A DNA stretch of 37,865 nt. Source: Candidatus Omnitrophota bacterium (GTDB lineage: Bacteria > Omnitrophota > Gorgyraeia > 2-02-FULL-51-18). The stretch is from contig JACQQX010000038.1 of assembly GCA_016206805.1 (NCBI GenBank), forward strand, positions 1 through 37,865. The letters are read 5' to 3'. Below are positions 24,522 to 34,495 of the stretch, piece by piece. The position numbers and the translations under genes are program-made. The number at the start of each line of letters is the position of its first letter. The stretch's first letter is position 1. The notes below the pieces were generated by a model, which made no database searches, was not told the DNA's origin, and saw only the letters and a list, made by a program, of their open reading frames with translations.

Positions 24522-25994
24522 TTAGGCCGCCCCGCGGCGCGTCAATAGCGCTTTAGCGGTCAGCAGCATGATTTTCATGTCCAGCCACAACGACCAATGG
24601 TCGATGTATCGGAGATCGAGCTTCATCCAATCTTCAAAACCGATTTGATTTCGTCCGGAAGCCTGCCATAAACACGTGATCCCGGGTTTCATCGAAAGCC
24701 GGCGGCGGTGCCACGGTTGATACTCGGCGACTTCTGCGGGAAGCGGAGGACGCGGACCCACGATGCTCATATCCCCCCGAAAAACATTCCAAAACTGTGG
24801 AAATTCATCGAGACTGGTTTTCCGCAAAAACTTCCCGATCGGCGTGACGCGCGGATCATTTTTCATTTTGAAAGCGGGGCCTGACATTTCATTGAGTGGT
24901 TTGAGTTCTTGAAGGCGGGCCTCGGCATCCGTAACCATCGAGCGGAATTTATACAGCACAAACCGCCGGCCATTTCTCCCGCAGCGGATCTGTTTAAAAA
25001 AAACCGGTCCCTGTGAAGTCAGTCTGATGGCCAGCGCCGAAAACGCCAAAAGCGGAGCCGTCACCACGAGCGCGACCGATGAGACCAGGACATCGAACAC
25101 TCTTTTTAAGAGCAGTTCCTCCTCTTTCAATAGGCGGGTGTGAAAAGTGAGGTAAGTAAAACCATCCATCTCTTCGGTTTCGCGAGAAGCGATCGACATG
25201 TCAAAAAAATCCGTGGCCAGCGTGGCGGGCACGCCTACGGCCTCGCAGTAACGGAGGCATTTTTCAATCTGTTCAAGCCACTTGCGGGGAATGACGAAAA
25301 CCACCTGATCAATCACCTGGGTTTTTAAAACCGCGGGAAGGTTTTCAAGCGTTCCGATCACTTGGGTCCCGGCAATGGGCTCTCCCACCATGTCCGGATA
25401 ACGATCGAGAAATCCCACCACATGATAGCCCCACTCTTTATGCACCGTCACCAAATCCGCAAACTTTTGGGCCCTTTGTCCCGTGCCGACAATCAATAGA
25501 TTCTTTTGATCCTGCCCCAGGCTTCTCACAGCCAGCGCCGCGGCCAATACCGCGGACCGCACCGCAAACAGCAAGATGACGCTCATCACCGTGTACAGCA
25601 CTAAAAATCCGCGGCTAAGAAAATCAAACTTGAGCAGGAACGCCGCTCCGGCCGCAAAAACGAAAAAGAGGCATCCATTGATGAAATGAGTCAGAAAAAC
25701 GCCCCAATAAGTCTGTGTGTGCTGGCGTCCATAATCGTCTCTGGCTTTCAAGAGCACCGCCCAGATCACCAGCACCAGCCAAAAAGCCCGCATGTAGACA
25801 TCGATGGGCCAAGGCTGCTGGATCAGTTTCACCGGCGGCAATAAATTGAGGGTGTAAAGGGAATGGAAATGAAACGACAGGTAATAAACCATAAAGAACG
25901 CCGCGGAAAGAATCGCCAATTCTGCGAAATAAAGCACGTGGCGTATGAATTGAATAGGTTCTTTAATCATCTTTATCCTTATCTCGCCACTCAT
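24522..25994 (-). CDS. Undecaprenyl-phosphate hexose-1-phosphate transferase (WcaJ-type)
   Basis: Five-TM N-terminus and KRVFDVLVSSVALVVTAPLLAF...GPVFFKQIRCGRNGRRFVLYKFRSM...GDMSIVGPRPPLPAEVAEY...KPGITCLWQASGRN. Confidence 0.95.
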   Translation of the reverse strand: MSGEIRIKMIKEPIQFIRHVLYFAELAILSAAFFMVYYLSFHFHSLYTLNLLPPVKLIQQPWPIDVYMRAFWLVLVIWAVLLKARDDYGRQHTQTYWGVFLTHFINGCLFFVFAAGAAFLLKFDFLSRGFLVLYTVMSVILLFAVRSAVLAAALAVRSLGQDQKNLLIVGTGQRAQKFADLVTVHKEWGYHVVGFLDRYPDMVGEPIAGTQVIGTLENLPAVLKTQVIDQVVFVIPRKWLEQIEKCLRYCEAVGVPATLATDFFDMSIASRETEEMDGFTYLTFHTRLLKEEELLLKRVFDVLVSSVALVVTAPLLAFSALAIRLTSQGPVFFKQIRCGRNGRRFVLYKFRSMVTDAEARLQELKPLNEMSGPAFKMKNDPRVTPIGKFLRKTSLDEFPQFWNVFRGDMSIVGPRPPLPAEVAEYQPWHRRRLSMKPGITCLWQASGRNQIGFEDWMKLDLRYIDHWSLWLDMKIMLLTAKALLTRRGAA

Positions 25995-26010
25995 CCTATA
26001 AAAAACTTTA

Positions 26011-26046
26011 TTAAACCGCCGTTAAAATAGAATTAAGTTTTTTTAA
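26011..26046 (-). promoter_or_regulatory. TTAA x4 array, site A, upstream of the sugar transferase
   Basis: TTAA at 26011, 26022, 26033, 26043 (spacing 11/11/10). Confidence 0.65.
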
Positions 26047-26087
26047 CGATAATGTTGGATGGAGATTTTTTCCAGCGAGGTATAATA

Positions 26088-26156
26088 ATGTCATTGCGAG
26101 GAGCGCGGCGACGAAGCAATCTAAACGTGGATTGCTTCGCTTCGCTCGCAATGACG
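26088..26156. repeat. TCATTGCGAG...CGAAGCAATC / GATTGCTTCG...CTCGCAATGA palindromic repeat
   Basis: Complementary ends and core; abuts the start of the propeller gene. Confidence 0.88.
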
Positions 26157-28187
26157 ATGAAGGAAAACTATTTTTTCTTTTTTCTTATTCTTCTGGCTCA
26201 ACCATTGAACTGGGAATTTGCCGGGTGGTTTGGCGGCGGCGCTTATCCGGCGCTGGTGCCGGATCCCACTATTCAAAAAAGAGCTTATTTGCTCTCCGAT
26301 GTGGCCGGGATATGGAAAAGTGACGATGCCGGCCAAAGCTGGACTTTTCGCACCGAAGGTCTGAAGAACCTGGGTGTTTCTTGTTTAGCCGTGTCCCCCG
26401 CGGATCCCCAAATCCTTTATGCGGGCACCGGCGAAGGGCTATACCGCTCCCAAGACAGTGGCGCCCGCTGGCATTTTTTGGAATCCACTCAAAAAATATT
26501 TCGCTTCAAACGCCCGGAATCCAGCCGCGCCATCTGGGTCCAACGGGATGATTCCAATAAAGTTTTTGCAGGAACAAAAGAGGGTGAAGTGTATTTCACC
26601 CAGGACGCCGGCATCAACTGGTTAAAGGTGGGGAAAAACCGCGCTCCTTTCCGGAAACGCTCGCCGGTATCAGCCCTTTTAGTAACCACAGATAACGAAG
26701 ATCTTTTTGTCGCTTCAAAAGCGGGGCTATGGCGATGCCATCTGCCTACCGGCAATTGGTTCAAGGTACATCACGCTCAGGATCTCCTCGTCGATATGAT
26801 CATCCATGAACCATCGGAAAGAATCTATATTCCTCTTGAGAAAAAAGTGGGTTGGTCCGACGATCGCGGGCGGCATTGGACCACTTCATCCGCTATTCCG
26901 GTCAAAAAAGGCAAAATCAACCGGATTGCCGTGGCAGGCATCGGAAAAAACGCCGTAAAAATCCTGGCTGCCTGGCAGGACCATTGGAATGGCGGAGTTT
27001 TTTTGAGCGAGGATGCCGGCCAAACTTGGCGCGATGTGTCAGGGCAAGTGCGGGATGACGTCGCCGCCAACCCCACCCGGAAGTGGAAAAAAGGTTTCGG
27101 AAGACCCCTGTCAGTGGCATTCGATCCTTTTCAAGATACCGTTTTTTATTTCACCGATTACTGGGGGGTATGGCGATCCGATGACAATGGCGCTACCTGG
27201 CAGGAAAAAATAGTGGGTTCACCCAATACGGTCGGATCGGATATCGCGGTCACCGCCAACGGCCTTCTGGCGGGTTCCATGGACAATGGCCTGCTGCAAT
27301 CTAAAGATTTTGGAAAAACGTATCAGGCTTCGCCTTTTCAGGGTCATGTGTGGCGCGTTCTCCCATTAGACACGGAAGGCAAAAAAATCGTAGCCACTTA
27401 TTCGCCATGGAATAAAGGCACCAATCAAATTCTGACCAGCGATGACGGCGGAAAAACTTTTTCAATCGTTTATAACGGCCTGCCCTCGACTTATCCTCTG
27501 ATCAATACGGTATGGGAAAAAGGATACGCGCGGGCCCTGGCCAAGGATCCTTTTGATTCCAAACACCTGTACCTGGGGATGGACGGGGATGACGGGGGTG
27601 GTTTTTTTTATTCCATCGATGAAGGCCAAAACTGGAAAAAACCATCGGGCCAACCCGCTTCCCGCCGGATTTACAACGCGCTGGCGGCGGATCCATCCCG
27701 GCAAGGGCGCCTTTATTGGGGCGCGGTCGGAAAAAATGGCGGAGTTTTTCGGTCCGACGATCATGGAAAAACATGGAAAAAGGTTTTTTCGGAAAGTTCG
27801 GTTTTTGATTTGGCTATTAATCCGCAAGGAATGGTCTTGGCTGGCGGTGATTTCGAGGGCGCCTGTCTCTACACATCGGAAGACGCGGGCACTTCCTGGA
27901 AACTCATCCAACGATTTGACGCTGTCGGGACCCTAGAAGCCATCGCCATCGATCCCGGCAATCCCAAACGAATCGCCGTCAGCAGCGTCTTATGGCACAA
28001 TGCGGCGCCCGGCAAAATTTACTTCACCGAAGATGGAGGCCAAACCTGGGCGGATATCACCGGAAGCCTGCCTAGTGGATCGGGTGCCGCGGCGATGGCC
28101 TTCTCATCGGATGGCAGAACGCTTTATGTGTCCCGGTACGCCGGTTCGATTTATAAAACCCATTGGGAATCTAAAAACCTAACGTGA
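26157..28187 (+). CDS. Secreted BNR/Asp-box beta-propeller protein
   Basis: About 12 Asp boxes (SDDAGQSW, SQDSGARW, SEDAGQTW, SDDNGATW, SDDHGKTW, TEDGGQTW...). Start set at MKENYFFFFLILL. Confidence 0.88.
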   Translation: MKENYFFFFLILLAQPLNWEFAGWFGGGAYPALVPDPTIQKRAYLLSDVAGIWKSDDAGQSWTFRTEGLKNLGVSCLAVSPADPQILYAGTGEGLYRSQDSGARWHFLESTQKIFRFKRPESSRAIWVQRDDSNKVFAGTKEGEVYFTQDAGINWLKVGKNRAPFRKRSPVSALLVTTDNEDLFVASKAGLWRCHLPTGNWFKVHHAQDLLVDMIIHEPSERIYIPLEKKVGWSDDRGRHWTTSSAIPVKKGKINRIAVAGIGKNAVKILAAWQDHWNGGVFLSEDAGQTWRDVSGQVRDDVAANPTRKWKKGFGRPLSVAFDPFQDTVFYFTDYWGVWRSDDNGATWQEKIVGSPNTVGSDIAVTANGLLAGSMDNGLLQSKDFGKTYQASPFQGHVWRVLPLDTEGKKIVATYSPWNKGTNQILTSDDGGKTFSIVYNGLPSTYPLINTVWEKGYARALAKDPFDSKHLYLGMDGDDGGGFFYSIDEGQNWKKPSGQPASRRIYNALAADPSRQGRLYWGAVGKNGGVFRSDDHGKTWKKVFSESSVFDLAINPQGMVLAGGDFEGACLYTSEDAGTSWKLIQRFDAVGTLEAIAIDPGNPKRIAVSSVLWHNAAPGKIYFTEDGGQTWADITGSLPSGSGAAAMAFSSDGRTLYVSRYAGSIYKTHWESKNLT

Positions 28188-29187: not shown

Positions 29188-29685
29188 TTAGCTTGGAAGA
29201 GAGCTTCCTAGGGAACTTCTGAGCATCCAGGCGAATTTTTCGTGGACTTCCATTCGCTCCGTGATGAGTTCGACGGAGGCCTGGTCATTGACTTCATTGG
29301 CCCGGGTATAAACAAAGCGGGCGATACGGCTGATTTCCTCATGGTCCTCTATCAGCGCGTGAATCATCTCTTCCGCGGCGGGAAATCCGGGTTCTTCGGA
29401 GACGGTGGACAGCTTGGAAAATTCCGAATAACTGCCGGCCGCCGGAAACCCAAGAGAACGAATGCGTTCGGCCAATGTGTCTATCGCCAGGGCCATTTCC
29501 ATGTACTGCTTCTCAAACATGGCGTGAAGCGCTTGGAAAAAGGGGCCGGTGACATTCCAGTGAAATTTATGAGTCTTGAGATAAACCGTGTAGGTACTCG
29601 CCAAAAGCTTCGAAAGCCCTTCGGCGATTTCCGCGCGGCTTTTTTCGTCAATACCGATATTGACGGGTACGGTGATGGCCGGCAT
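29188..29685 (-). CDS. dps: Dps family ferritin-like protein
   Basis: LLASTYTVYLKTHKFHWNVTGPFFQALHAMFEKQYMEMALAIDTLAERIRSLG. Confidence 0.93.
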   Translation of the reverse strand: MPAITVPVNIGIDEKSRAEIAEGLSKLLASTYTVYLKTHKFHWNVTGPFFQALHAMFEKQYMEMALAIDTLAERIRSLGFPAAGSYSEFSKLSTVSEEPGFPAAEEMIHALIEDHEEISRIARFVYTRANEVNDQASVELITERMEVHEKFAWMLRSSLGSSLPS

Positions 29686-30106
29686 GGTCTTCTGATACCT
29701 CCTTTACAAATTCCGCCGTTTCATACTCGGGAGCATGTATGGCGATATCCGCCTGCGAAACAATCCCGCAGCACTCTCCGTTGTCGTCCACGACCGGAAT
29801 ACGACGCACCTGATGCTGCTTGAGAATGGCCAGGCATTCTTCGAGATCCGTATCCGGAGTAACGGTGACGCAAGGCTGTGACATGCATTCCCCCGCCGTC
29901 AATTCCAGCGGATTTTTTCCATACGTGAAAGCCCTGCAGGCAATATCCCTATCCGTAATGATTCCGATCGGCCTCAAATTGGCCTCGCTTTCAACCACCG
30001 GAATGGCCCCGCAGTCGTTTTCACACATCATCTGAGACACATCTTCGAGCGCCGTATCCGCCAAACAACACGTGGGATCTTTTGTCATAATCTCGTTCAC
30101 TTTCAT
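29648..30106 (-). CDS. Two-CBS-domain protein
   Basis: MKVNEIMTKDPTCC...GIITDRDIACRAF...MSQPCVTVTPDTDLEECLAILKQHQVRRIPVVDDNGECCGIVSQADIA. Confidence 0.92.
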   Translation of the reverse strand: MKVNEIMTKDPTCCLADTALEDVSQMMCENDCGAIPVVESEANLRPIGIITDRDIACRAFTYGKNPLELTAGECMSQPCVTVTPDTDLEECLAILKQHQVRRIPVVDDNGECCGIVSQADIAIHAPEYETAEFVKEVSEDHAGHHRTRQYRY

Positions 30107-30130
30107 CACACACCTCCTGCGCATCAGCGT

Positions 30131-30757: not shown

Positions 30758-30797
30758 TCACCTCTCATCTCTAAATTTCAGATTAGCTATACCGCCG

Positions 30798-30833
30798 TTA
30801 ACACGATATTAAAATAGAATTAAACTTTGTTAA
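30798..30833 (-). promoter_or_regulatory. TTAA x4 array, site B, upstream of sod
   Basis: TTAA at 30798, 30809, 30820, 30830 (spacing 11/11/10). Confidence 0.65.
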
Positions 30834-30839
30834 TCTGAC

Positions 30840-30992
30840 TTAACGGCCCTTATGGAGTTTCATCACGGTGCGAGCGGCTACTTCCTTCGCTCGCTTGCCA
30901 TAACGCCCGGACCGCTGGGCGGATGTTTTGATGTGCTCGTATTGGCGCTGTTCCTTGGCCCCGACCCCTTTCAAACGTTTGTTCCTTGGCAT
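30840..30992 (-). CDS. Small basic 50-aa protein overlapping the 3' end of the glycosyltransferase gene in another frame
   Basis: MPRNKRLKGVGAKEQRQYEHIKTSAQRSGRYGKRAKEVAARTVMKLHKGR; resembles small plasmid-stabilization-annotated proteins (RQYEHIK...AKEVAARTV). Confidence 0.65.
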   Translation of the reverse strand: MPRNKRLKGVGAKEQRQYEHIKTSAQRSGRYGKRAKEVAARTVMKLHKGR

Positions 30993-31932
30993 ATTTGATC
31001 CCCTTGTCTATTTTTGGCGCCGCCAACGATAAAGCAGCGCCTACTGCAATCCAGAATTTCTCAAATCGTTCTGACTTCCAAACCGTCAAGAACTCGAAAA
31101 ACTCGATTAACAGCAGCCCGCTCAGCGAGTATGCAAAAAGAAAACGAGAAATCCATCCCCGATCTTTATGTTTTTTGAAAAGATAATGATAGTTCCGGAT
31201 CTCCATTTTTTTGAGAGATCCGGCATCCAGACGGCTTTCGGTGGAATAATTATGGGAAAGCCGCGCCTCAGAAATCATGACAAGCCGTGTCTTTTTGGAA
31301 ACGCGGTAGGAATAATCCACGTCTTCCCGGAAGCTATATCCATAAAACCATTCATCAAATCTCTCTCCTTGCAGGCGGTCGCGTCGGAAATTCATATTGC
31401 ATCCCGGAAGCAGGTCCACCGGCGTCGTGGCTTCGATTTTTCTTTCGCAAATGGGATAACCAAAACCCGAGGAAGTCATGCGTCCGTCAAAATGGCTGAT
31501 CAGGAAAATCCGCATCACCATTTTTCGGACCTCCCACTTCACTCCGGACGGCCATTTTTTCACGATCGTGCTGCCGCTTAAAGCGCCGGTCGAGGCATTT
31601 TCCTTGAAGTGATGGATCACTTCCCGGTAATACTCCCGGAAAAGGACCACGTCATCGTCCAAAAAACTCACGATTTCGCCGGTGGCTTTGGCCAACCCCG
31701 CGTTACGGGCCTTGACAAGGCTCTTTTCCTCCTGGACAAGATATTCGAAGCGAACCGGCTTTTGCGCGTGAGCGGCCTGGATCTGGGAAAGGACTTCTTT
31801 TGAGCGGCTATTGGTGCTTTGGTCGACGATGATGATTTCAGCGGGAAGGGCTATTTGACGCATGAGCGAGTTGAGCGCCGAATCCAGATCCGCCGGGCGA
31901 TTCAATGTGGGAATAATCACACTCACCTTCAT
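30850..31932 (-). CDS. Family 2 glycosyltransferase
   Basis: VSVIIPTLNRPADLDSALNSLMRQIALPAEIIIVDQSTNSRS, FLDDDVVL, GCNMNFRRD. Confidence 0.92.
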   Translation of the reverse strand: MKVSVIIPTLNRPADLDSALNSLMRQIALPAEIIIVDQSTNSRSKEVLSQIQAAHAQKPVRFEYLVQEEKSLVKARNAGLAKATGEIVSFLDDDVVLFREYYREVIHHFKENASTGALSGSTIVKKWPSGVKWEVRKMVMRIFLISHFDGRMTSSGFGYPICERKIEATTPVDLLPGCNMNFRRDRLQGERFDEWFYGYSFREDVDYSYRVSKKTRLVMISEARLSHNYSTESRLDAGSLKKMEIRNYHYLFKKHKDRGWISRFLFAYSLSGLLLIEFFEFLTVWKSERFEKFWIAVGAALSLAAPKIDKGIKYAKEQTFERGRGQGTAPIRAHQNIRPAVRALWQASEGSSRSHRDETP

Positions 31933-33167
31933 CGCAAAACCTCCTCCTCTTTGAGCAGGCGTTCCAAAAGCGCGTGTTGGCTTCGAACAAGACGGGCTTT
32001 TCGTCCCTGCAGTGATTGCCGGATACGGTCCCGCCGCGCGAGTGTCGCCCGCAAAAGCGGCCCAAGCTCCCCGATGCGCTCCATCGACAACATGTTTTCC
32101 CGGAATCGGAACGATTCAAAAAGACCCGAGATTTTCCGGAAATAATACTCCCCGCGATAAAGCCCGATGGCCGGCACGCCGCTGGCCAAAGCAAAAACAA
32201 GGCTGTGAAACCGCATGCCGATCAAAAGATCCAGCCGGCTAACCAGATACAGTCTCTGTTCGACGGTGAAGTCTTCGTTAACAGGCACAAAATCAATACG
32301 GGATGACAGATAAGCGGAAAATGTCTCGGCTTCCCTGCGGTCGTCGCAGTATCGGCTGGTTTCCATGGGAATAAAAATAATTTTCACCCGTTTATGCCGA
32401 AGGGACTGAGCAAGCGAGCTGATGGCTTCGGCGATTTCCGGATAATATTGTCCGGCGCCGGGCCAGCGCCTCAAATTGATTCCCAAAAAAAACGTCTCCC
32501 GGTTCCTTTCCGGAGCCAGCAGCTTGTCCACCGCCTGTTTTTCGCGGTCTAAAAGCCTTGGGCTAAAAGGCAGCGCGTCGTCAACGCCGCGCCACACCTT
32601 GTTTTTGAAGCGGGCCACTTCCAATGACGACTCCGAATCCCGCAATACTATTTTTTGAGCGTGTTCAAATATTTCATTGGCCATTTTCCGATGATTATCC
32701 TTCTCGAACGGCCCAAGCGTCTGCCCCAAAAGATAAAAAGGCTTTCCCAGTTTCCGCACGAAAGCGGCCAGAACATTCATTTCCAGAAGATAAAAATCAC
32801 CGCTCAGGTAGCCGCCGCCTACAAAGATCACCTTATCGGATTGTCGCACCGCCCGCACGGCGTTGGGGCTCACTTTGCCCATCGCCGCGGCCAACCAGCG
32901 GGAAAAAGGATAAAAATCCGTATAAAGTTTTGTCAAAATCAGCGAGCGAAAGGTTTTCCCGCGTGTCCACGCCAATGGAGTCCAGTAAATCAATTCATAA
33001 TCCACCGGCCGATCGAAACGAACGCGAAAATCCGGAACATCCGTACAGATACGGAAAAACGCGCGGGGAAACAAATCATTCAAACTATACAGCGTATTTT
33101 TTAGAATAGCCTCATCGCCCGGGTTGCCGCATGAAAATCCCCCGATGATCAAAAAATTCATAAGCAA
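31929..33167 (-). CDS. Polysaccharide pyruvyl transferase family protein
   Basis: IGGFSCGNPGDEAILKNTLYSL...VIFVGGGYLSGDFY...GMRFHSLVFALASGVPAIGLYR. Confidence 0.92.
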   Translation of the reverse strand: MLMNFLIIGGFSCGNPGDEAILKNTLYSLNDLFPRAFFRICTDVPDFRVRFDRPVDYELIYWTPLAWTRGKTFRSLILTKLYTDFYPFSRWLAAAMGKVSPNAVRAVRQSDKVIFVGGGYLSGDFYLLEMNVLAAFVRKLGKPFYLLGQTLGPFEKDNHRKMANEIFEHAQKIVLRDSESSLEVARFKNKVWRGVDDALPFSPRLLDREKQAVDKLLAPERNRETFFLGINLRRWPGAGQYYPEIAEAISSLAQSLRHKRVKIIFIPMETSRYCDDRREAETFSAYLSSRIDFVPVNEDFTVEQRLYLVSRLDLLIGMRFHSLVFALASGVPAIGLYRGEYYFRKISGLFESFRFRENMLSMERIGELGPLLRATLARRDRIRQSLQGRKARLVRSQHALLERLLKEEEVLR

Positions 33168-34401: not shown

Positions 34402-34459
34402 CGCCTCACGCCTCCTCGCCGGCAACCCAATGTTTACCCAAAACTTATCAAAGCATGGA

Positions 34460-34495
34460 TTAATGCCGCGTTAAAATTGGATTAAAACGCTTTAA
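34460..34495 (-). promoter_or_regulatory. TTAA x4 array, site C, upstream of the PP-loop gene
   Basis: TTAA at 34460, 34471, 34482, 34492 (spacing 11/11/10). Confidence 0.65.

Follow-up and report, generated by a model that had tools for sequence, protein, structure and literature searches.

The window, meaning the whole stretch of 37,865 nucleotides that was analysed, carries three sites of four TTAA repeats (A to C), each preceding the first gene of a minus-strand unit, as a preliminary description of this DNA had claimed. The TTAA-N6-TTAA-N7-TTAA-N7-TTAA sequence, the coordinates and the strand that it gave were exact at all three, and a pattern search of the window returned no further exact tetrad, in agreement with the absence it had reported. 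The sites, their -10 elements and the genes behind them are as follows.

26011..26046, minus strand: operator A, four TTAA repeats (N6/N7/N7), exact match
25993..25998, minus strand: -10 element TAGGAT of promoter A, 12 nt past the proximal TTAA
24522..25970, minus strand: first gene of unit A, exopolysaccharide polyprenyl glycosylphosphotransferase (TIGR03025)
30798..30833, minus strand: operator B, four TTAA repeats, exact match
30780..30785, minus strand: -10 element TAATCT of promoter B, 12 nt past the proximal TTAA
30131..30757, minus strand: first gene of unit B, Fe/Mn superoxide dismutase
29648..30124, minus strand: unit B, CBS-domain protein
29188..29685, minus strand: unit B, ferritin-like protein
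34460..34495, minus strand: operator C, four TTAA repeats, exact match
34442..34447, minus strand: -10 element TAAGTT of promoter C, 12 nt past the proximal TTAA
33112..34401, minus strand: first gene of unit C, protein without a family match
31929..33167, minus strand: unit C, polysaccharide pyruvyl transferase, frame open from 33167
30850..31932, minus strand: unit C, family 2 glycosyltransferase

More exopolysaccharide genes come behind the glycosylphosphotransferase of unit A on the same strand, and the start of the pyruvyl transferase in unit C probably lies inside the frame listed. A palindromic repeat, TTGCGAGGAGCGCGGCGACGAAGCAATC...GATTGCTTC, occupies positions 26094-26138, immediately upstream of operator A, and a shorter pair resembling it is found at 280-307. 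Adjoining operator A and divergent from it is an ORF of 711 aa with Sortilin/BNR repeats (26052-28187, plus strand); its listed start falls in the repeat region, and the gene probably begins further inside the frame.

The abundance of the pattern was compared with shuffled and reversed controls. In the window, three exact tetrads were found against 0.00 expected from 100 dinucleotide-preserving shuffles, and eight with at most three mismatches against 0.28 in the shuffles. The 1.39 Mb assembly holds six exact tetrads and none of the reversed pattern. For the three proximal repeats (TTAA-N7-TTAA-N7-TTAA), the genome-wide search resulted in 26 matches with at most one mismatch, against 3 for the reversed control, and in 12 exact matches at 11 loci (one pair overlaps), against 0. 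We then used a list of 16 sites of the assembly, which comes from pattern searches and chosen stretches rather than from a full matrix scan. ORFs of at least 150 aa make up 82% of the stretches holding these sites; 15 of the sites overlap none of them, and the remaining site shares no more than 4 bp with the end of such an ORF. The outcome that the preliminary description had named against itself, genome-wide matches at background frequency in coding regions, was therefore not what we found. Nearly all genomic sites face a nearby start codon, two (C48:727 and C12:14114) are followed by very short ORFs, and one (C4:961) is without a clear downstream gene. The last of these (G000:C4:961-1004, plus strand) is a strong operator with a -10 element, directed away from the neighbouring ZIP-transporter gene, and could perhaps drive a small RNA or a short protein.

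For the promoter geometry, the 16 genomic sites were aligned, with the orientation taken from the downstream start codon or the -10 element. In 15 of the 16 sites, TANNNT starts precisely 12 nt past the third TTAA, and it is found at almost no other offset within 0-39; the binomial probability for offset 12 is about 5e-18, a P value that ignores shared ancestry. The 11 exact-triple loci were counted separately because the -10 element had not been used in finding them, which avoids circularity; ten have TANNNT at offset 12, and the eleventh has CATAAT. The -10 elements of the window, previously placed about 10 nt downstream, are indeed present, but the true spacing is tighter, with TANNNT at exactly 12 nt in all three. 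A T-rich or TG-like sequence precedes the -10 elements. The outermost (N6) repeat is the loosest, reading TTA[AG] in 10 of the 16 sites, yet it peaks at that single spacing. Tandem direct repeats at about 11 bp (here in steps of 10/11/11 bp) and a -10 element at offset 12 in place of a -35, with the same spacing in relatives, are the features of an OmpR/PhoB-family operator. Similarly, in PhoB-type activated promoters the tandem repeats end about 10 bp before a TAN3T -10 and replace the -35 (PMC1906773), and the tandem-dimer binding mode of the family is described for M. tuberculosis PhoP (PMC4832192). The four-TTAA sites are thus confirmed as real promoter elements that recur at about 16 promoters of the genome. 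In one related genome, two divergent operators stand back to back (L088:305-398, on G004:C80), and a separate -10 element lies at offset 12 from each.

Three proteins of the assembly contain the OmpR-type DNA-binding domain (PF00486, Trans_reg_C), and one of them, on contig C19, is linked to the motif across genomes. This answers the search for an OmpR-type regulator that the preliminary description had proposed, since the conserved loci of the C19 protein carry the same motif. The pair on this contig is as follows.

C19:12091-12756, minus strand: candidate regulator, OmpR/PhoB-family response regulator, CzcR/CopR-like
C19:10548-12065: adjacent membrane histidine kinase

The linked regulator, having a receiver and a Trans_reg_C domain, belongs to the OmpR/PhoB family. 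Its best-scoring family was TIGR01387 (CusR/CopR/CzcR) with 269.0 bits, below the curated cut-off of 279.2, and the kinase was closest to TIGR01386 with 256.3 bits, below the cut-off of 292.55. The PmrA equivalog model gave 185.7 bits against a cut-off of 330, so that the regulator was not classified as PmrA. Its nearest named homolog records are from Candidatus Omnitrophota, and we assign the genome of the window to this phylum accordingly. Regulator and kinase sit among three motif sites on C19, one of which (C19:14664) heads a tightly packed run including both genes; autoregulation is therefore likely, and the regulator probably controls its own operon. The link between the window sites and this regulator comes from conserved neighbourhoods in other genomes and from the three C19 sites, not from proximity to the window. 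The C19 regulator is most likely the protein that reads the TTAA operators. With enrichment, promoter placement, a fixed -10 distance and a linked regulator, the earlier proposal of an OmpR/PhoB-family direct-repeat operator is supported.

To compare genomes, we used a matrix of 54 positions built only from the 11 exact-triple sites, in which operator A scored 56.7 bits as a training member and 46.0 bits when left out. With this matrix we scanned 1.2 Mb of DNA surrounding homologous regulators from many phyla. The top 23 matches were all at Omnitrophota-type loci (one record is titled Nitrospirae), and 21 of them scored above 24.4, the maximum of the reversed control. The best match in another phylum reached 19.4 bits, which is not convincing; the scanned CzcR-type loci of other phyla being without a convincing match, the motif is not general to the CzcR subfamily.

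In the first set of loci, a site lies on the regulator's strand at each of the 14 further orthologs whose identity to the regulator is 60% or higher. Thirteen of these sites lie 1.1-1.6 kb past the regulator stop codon, beyond the kinase gene, where they often precede a single-domain response regulator, and one locus (G011) has a site upstream only. Five Omnitrophota-type loci of this set at 54-56% identity had no site, one of them on a contig of only 3 kb. The second set comprises 20 further loci that were fetched after the matrix was fixed and scanned with it unchanged. Wherever the identity of the regulator was 61% or higher (13 loci), a same-strand site was present (17.9-48.9 bits); 12 of the sites lie 1.08-1.59 kb past the regulator, and one lies 116 nt after it. 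Some of these scores are near the reversed-control maxima, and position carries part of the argument. Two loci at 57% identity have a weaker site in the same place, and of five loci at 52-54% identity, four were without a site and one (L269) has a strong one. Taken together, a site accompanies each of the 27 further orthologs examined that reach 60% identity, and in 25 of the 27 it lies just downstream of the regulator-kinase genes.

An oriented pattern with one or two mismatches was too noisy in AT-rich genomes, and a stricter pattern was used instead, together with the matrix. In 147 genomes of the class, the stricter pattern gave 21 matches against 1 in the control. Seven of the matches are outside the family, and five of these follow a regulator ortholog at a distance of 1.08-1.52 kb on its downstream side; two genomes (G033 and G116) have a strict-pattern match and yet no regulator ortholog at E<=1e-65. 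The recognition helix reads [YFH][IVM][NSK]..LR where the site is present and is mostly different (ARLR, RRLR or SHLR) at loci without it. Judging from these loci, the motif is common to genomes across Omnitrophota. One genome has the regulator-kinase locus twice (L252 and L255, on G068:C1), and in both copies an operator follows the regulator at the same distance (1077 and 1088 nt). An Omnitrophota-type regulator (66% identical) and the operator also occur in L098, a MAG titled Nitrospirae, which would be a mislabelled bin or a case of transfer.

Beyond the three units of the window, the targets on other contigs include a trehalose-phosphate synthase, an acyltransferase, a CusF/DUF5666-like protein, an LTXXQ (CpxP/Spy-type) periplasmic protein, a small lipoprotein and single-domain response regulators. 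A related genome (G004), whose regulator is 78% identical, has six sites on the regulator's contig. One of them heads trehalose phosphatase, a receiver protein, the regulator and the kinase, and another precedes a hybrid-kinase pair orthologous (86% and 70%) to the window kinases at 35669-37852 and 34506-35696. The former of these window genes (minus strand) encodes a hybrid histidine kinase truncated at the contig end. Its alignment, at 86%, covers residues 552-1278 of a multi-HAMP kinase of 1282 aa in a genome of the same family (L088:2659-6507), and a TTAA operator lies 62 nt before the start of the latter gene. By this comparison, a fourth operator may lie just beyond the contig end of the window.

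From these data, we infer that every site serves as the operator of a sigma-70-type promoter that depends on an activator. The C19 response regulator would be phosphorylated by the adjacent membrane histidine kinase, and the phosphorylated protein would bind the four TTAA half-sites, spaced 10-11 bp, with its subunits head-to-tail on one face of the helix. The proximal subunit, at 12 nt from the -10 element on the upstream side, would adjoin RNA polymerase and substitute for the missing -35. Some 16 promoters would be served in this way. Besides the promoter of the regulator's own operon, they would include those for exopolysaccharide and trehalose synthesis, superoxide dismutase/ferritin, single-domain response regulators and small envelope proteins. 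The signal would be an envelope, osmotic, oxidative or metal stress. Taken as a whole, from the TTAA operators and the C19 regulator-kinase pair to the activation of about 16 promoters, we hold this explanation to be highly probable.

The same regulator and sites could instead serve mainly for repression, or in a mixed role, if binding beside the -10 element blocks RNA polymerase. The sites do overlap the -35 region, as repressor sites also do. However, repressor sites are usually placed less strictly, and both the exact 12-nt distance in nearly all sites and the T-rich or TG-like stretch ahead of the -10 are what one expects if an activator takes the place of the -35, which makes a mainly repressive or mixed role quite unlikely.

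A phosphate regulon was another alternative, in which the sites would be Pho boxes of a PhoB-like regulator encoded on contig C38 and the regulon would answer phosphate limitation. The genome has a PhoB/PhoR-like pair and a pst operon, and the TTAA-N7-TTAA layout equals that of the cyanobacterial SphR Pho box, which has the form CTTAACCT, with 3-bp linkers and at least three repeats (PMC1906773). Nevertheless, no site was found upstream of pstSCAB-phoU (C48:14465-19230) and none in the searched stretch of C38 that holds the PhoB-like gene, and across genomes the motif adjoins the C19-type regulator, not PhoB. Since the pst operon is without the motif, phosphate control is very unlikely. The likeness to PhoP and Pho boxes drawn in the preliminary description therefore holds for the family and the repeat geometry, whereas a phosphate PhoB/PhoP is probably not the regulator. 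A chance or compositional pattern of AT-rich spacers and intergenic DNA with no regulator involved has a negligible probability, for although TTAA is made of A and T only, intergenic DNA is richer in AT and AT-rich relatives yield many loose matches with pattern and control alike, it is contradicted by the shuffle and reversed-pattern controls, the fixed -10 spacing and the same position beside the regulator in many genomes.

The activator operator proposed here can be set against several known systems. It shares head-to-tail 11-bp repeats and the winged-helix family with the E. coli PhoB Pho box and M. tuberculosis PhoP, but the half-site is TTAA rather than CTGTCAT or TCACAGC, there are four repeats with one 10-bp step, and the regulon is not that of phosphate. 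B. subtilis PhoP likewise uses several AT-rich TTAACA-like direct repeats at helical spacing, but for phosphate control and in another phylum. The SphR Pho box has the TTAA core, the TTAA-N7-TTAA spacing and at least three tandem copies in common with it; SphR is PhoB-type and controls phosphate genes, whereas here the linked regulator is CzcR/CopR-like. The PmrA/BasR box, (C/T)TTAA(G/T)-N5-(C/T)TTAA(G/T) (PMC10729948), shares the TTAA core and the N7 between cores, but has two half-sites instead of four. Finally, the characterised CusR/CopR/CzcR regulators, members of the family that scores best for the C19 protein, bind palindromes such as ATTCATnnATGTAAT (PMC11195947). The conserved sites are oriented direct repeats and, assuming that the linked regulator reads them, not the palindromic operator of TIGR01387; the nearest known proteins therefore do not predict the TTAA direct-repeat motif.

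This kind of operator is already known, and what appears new, and was unexpected, is the pairing of this regulator lineage with it. No description of any regulon in Omnitrophota was found in the literature searched. We give about even chances to a broader proposal, a two-component stress and envelope regulon across much of Omnitrophota and also in the one MAG titled Nitrospirae, in which a lineage near the palindrome-binding CzcR/CopR proteins would read a PhoB-like four-repeat operator, with the recognition helix changed to match, as one switch for capsule synthesis, trehalose and antioxidant defence. Most Omnitrophota are uncultured, and here the sequence itself yields an operator, its promoter geometry, a probable regulator-kinase pair and about 16 target promoters. 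With an operator of direct repeats on one side and CzcR/CopR relatives that bind palindromes on the other, it would offer a natural case for how the binding mode changes within the OmpR family.
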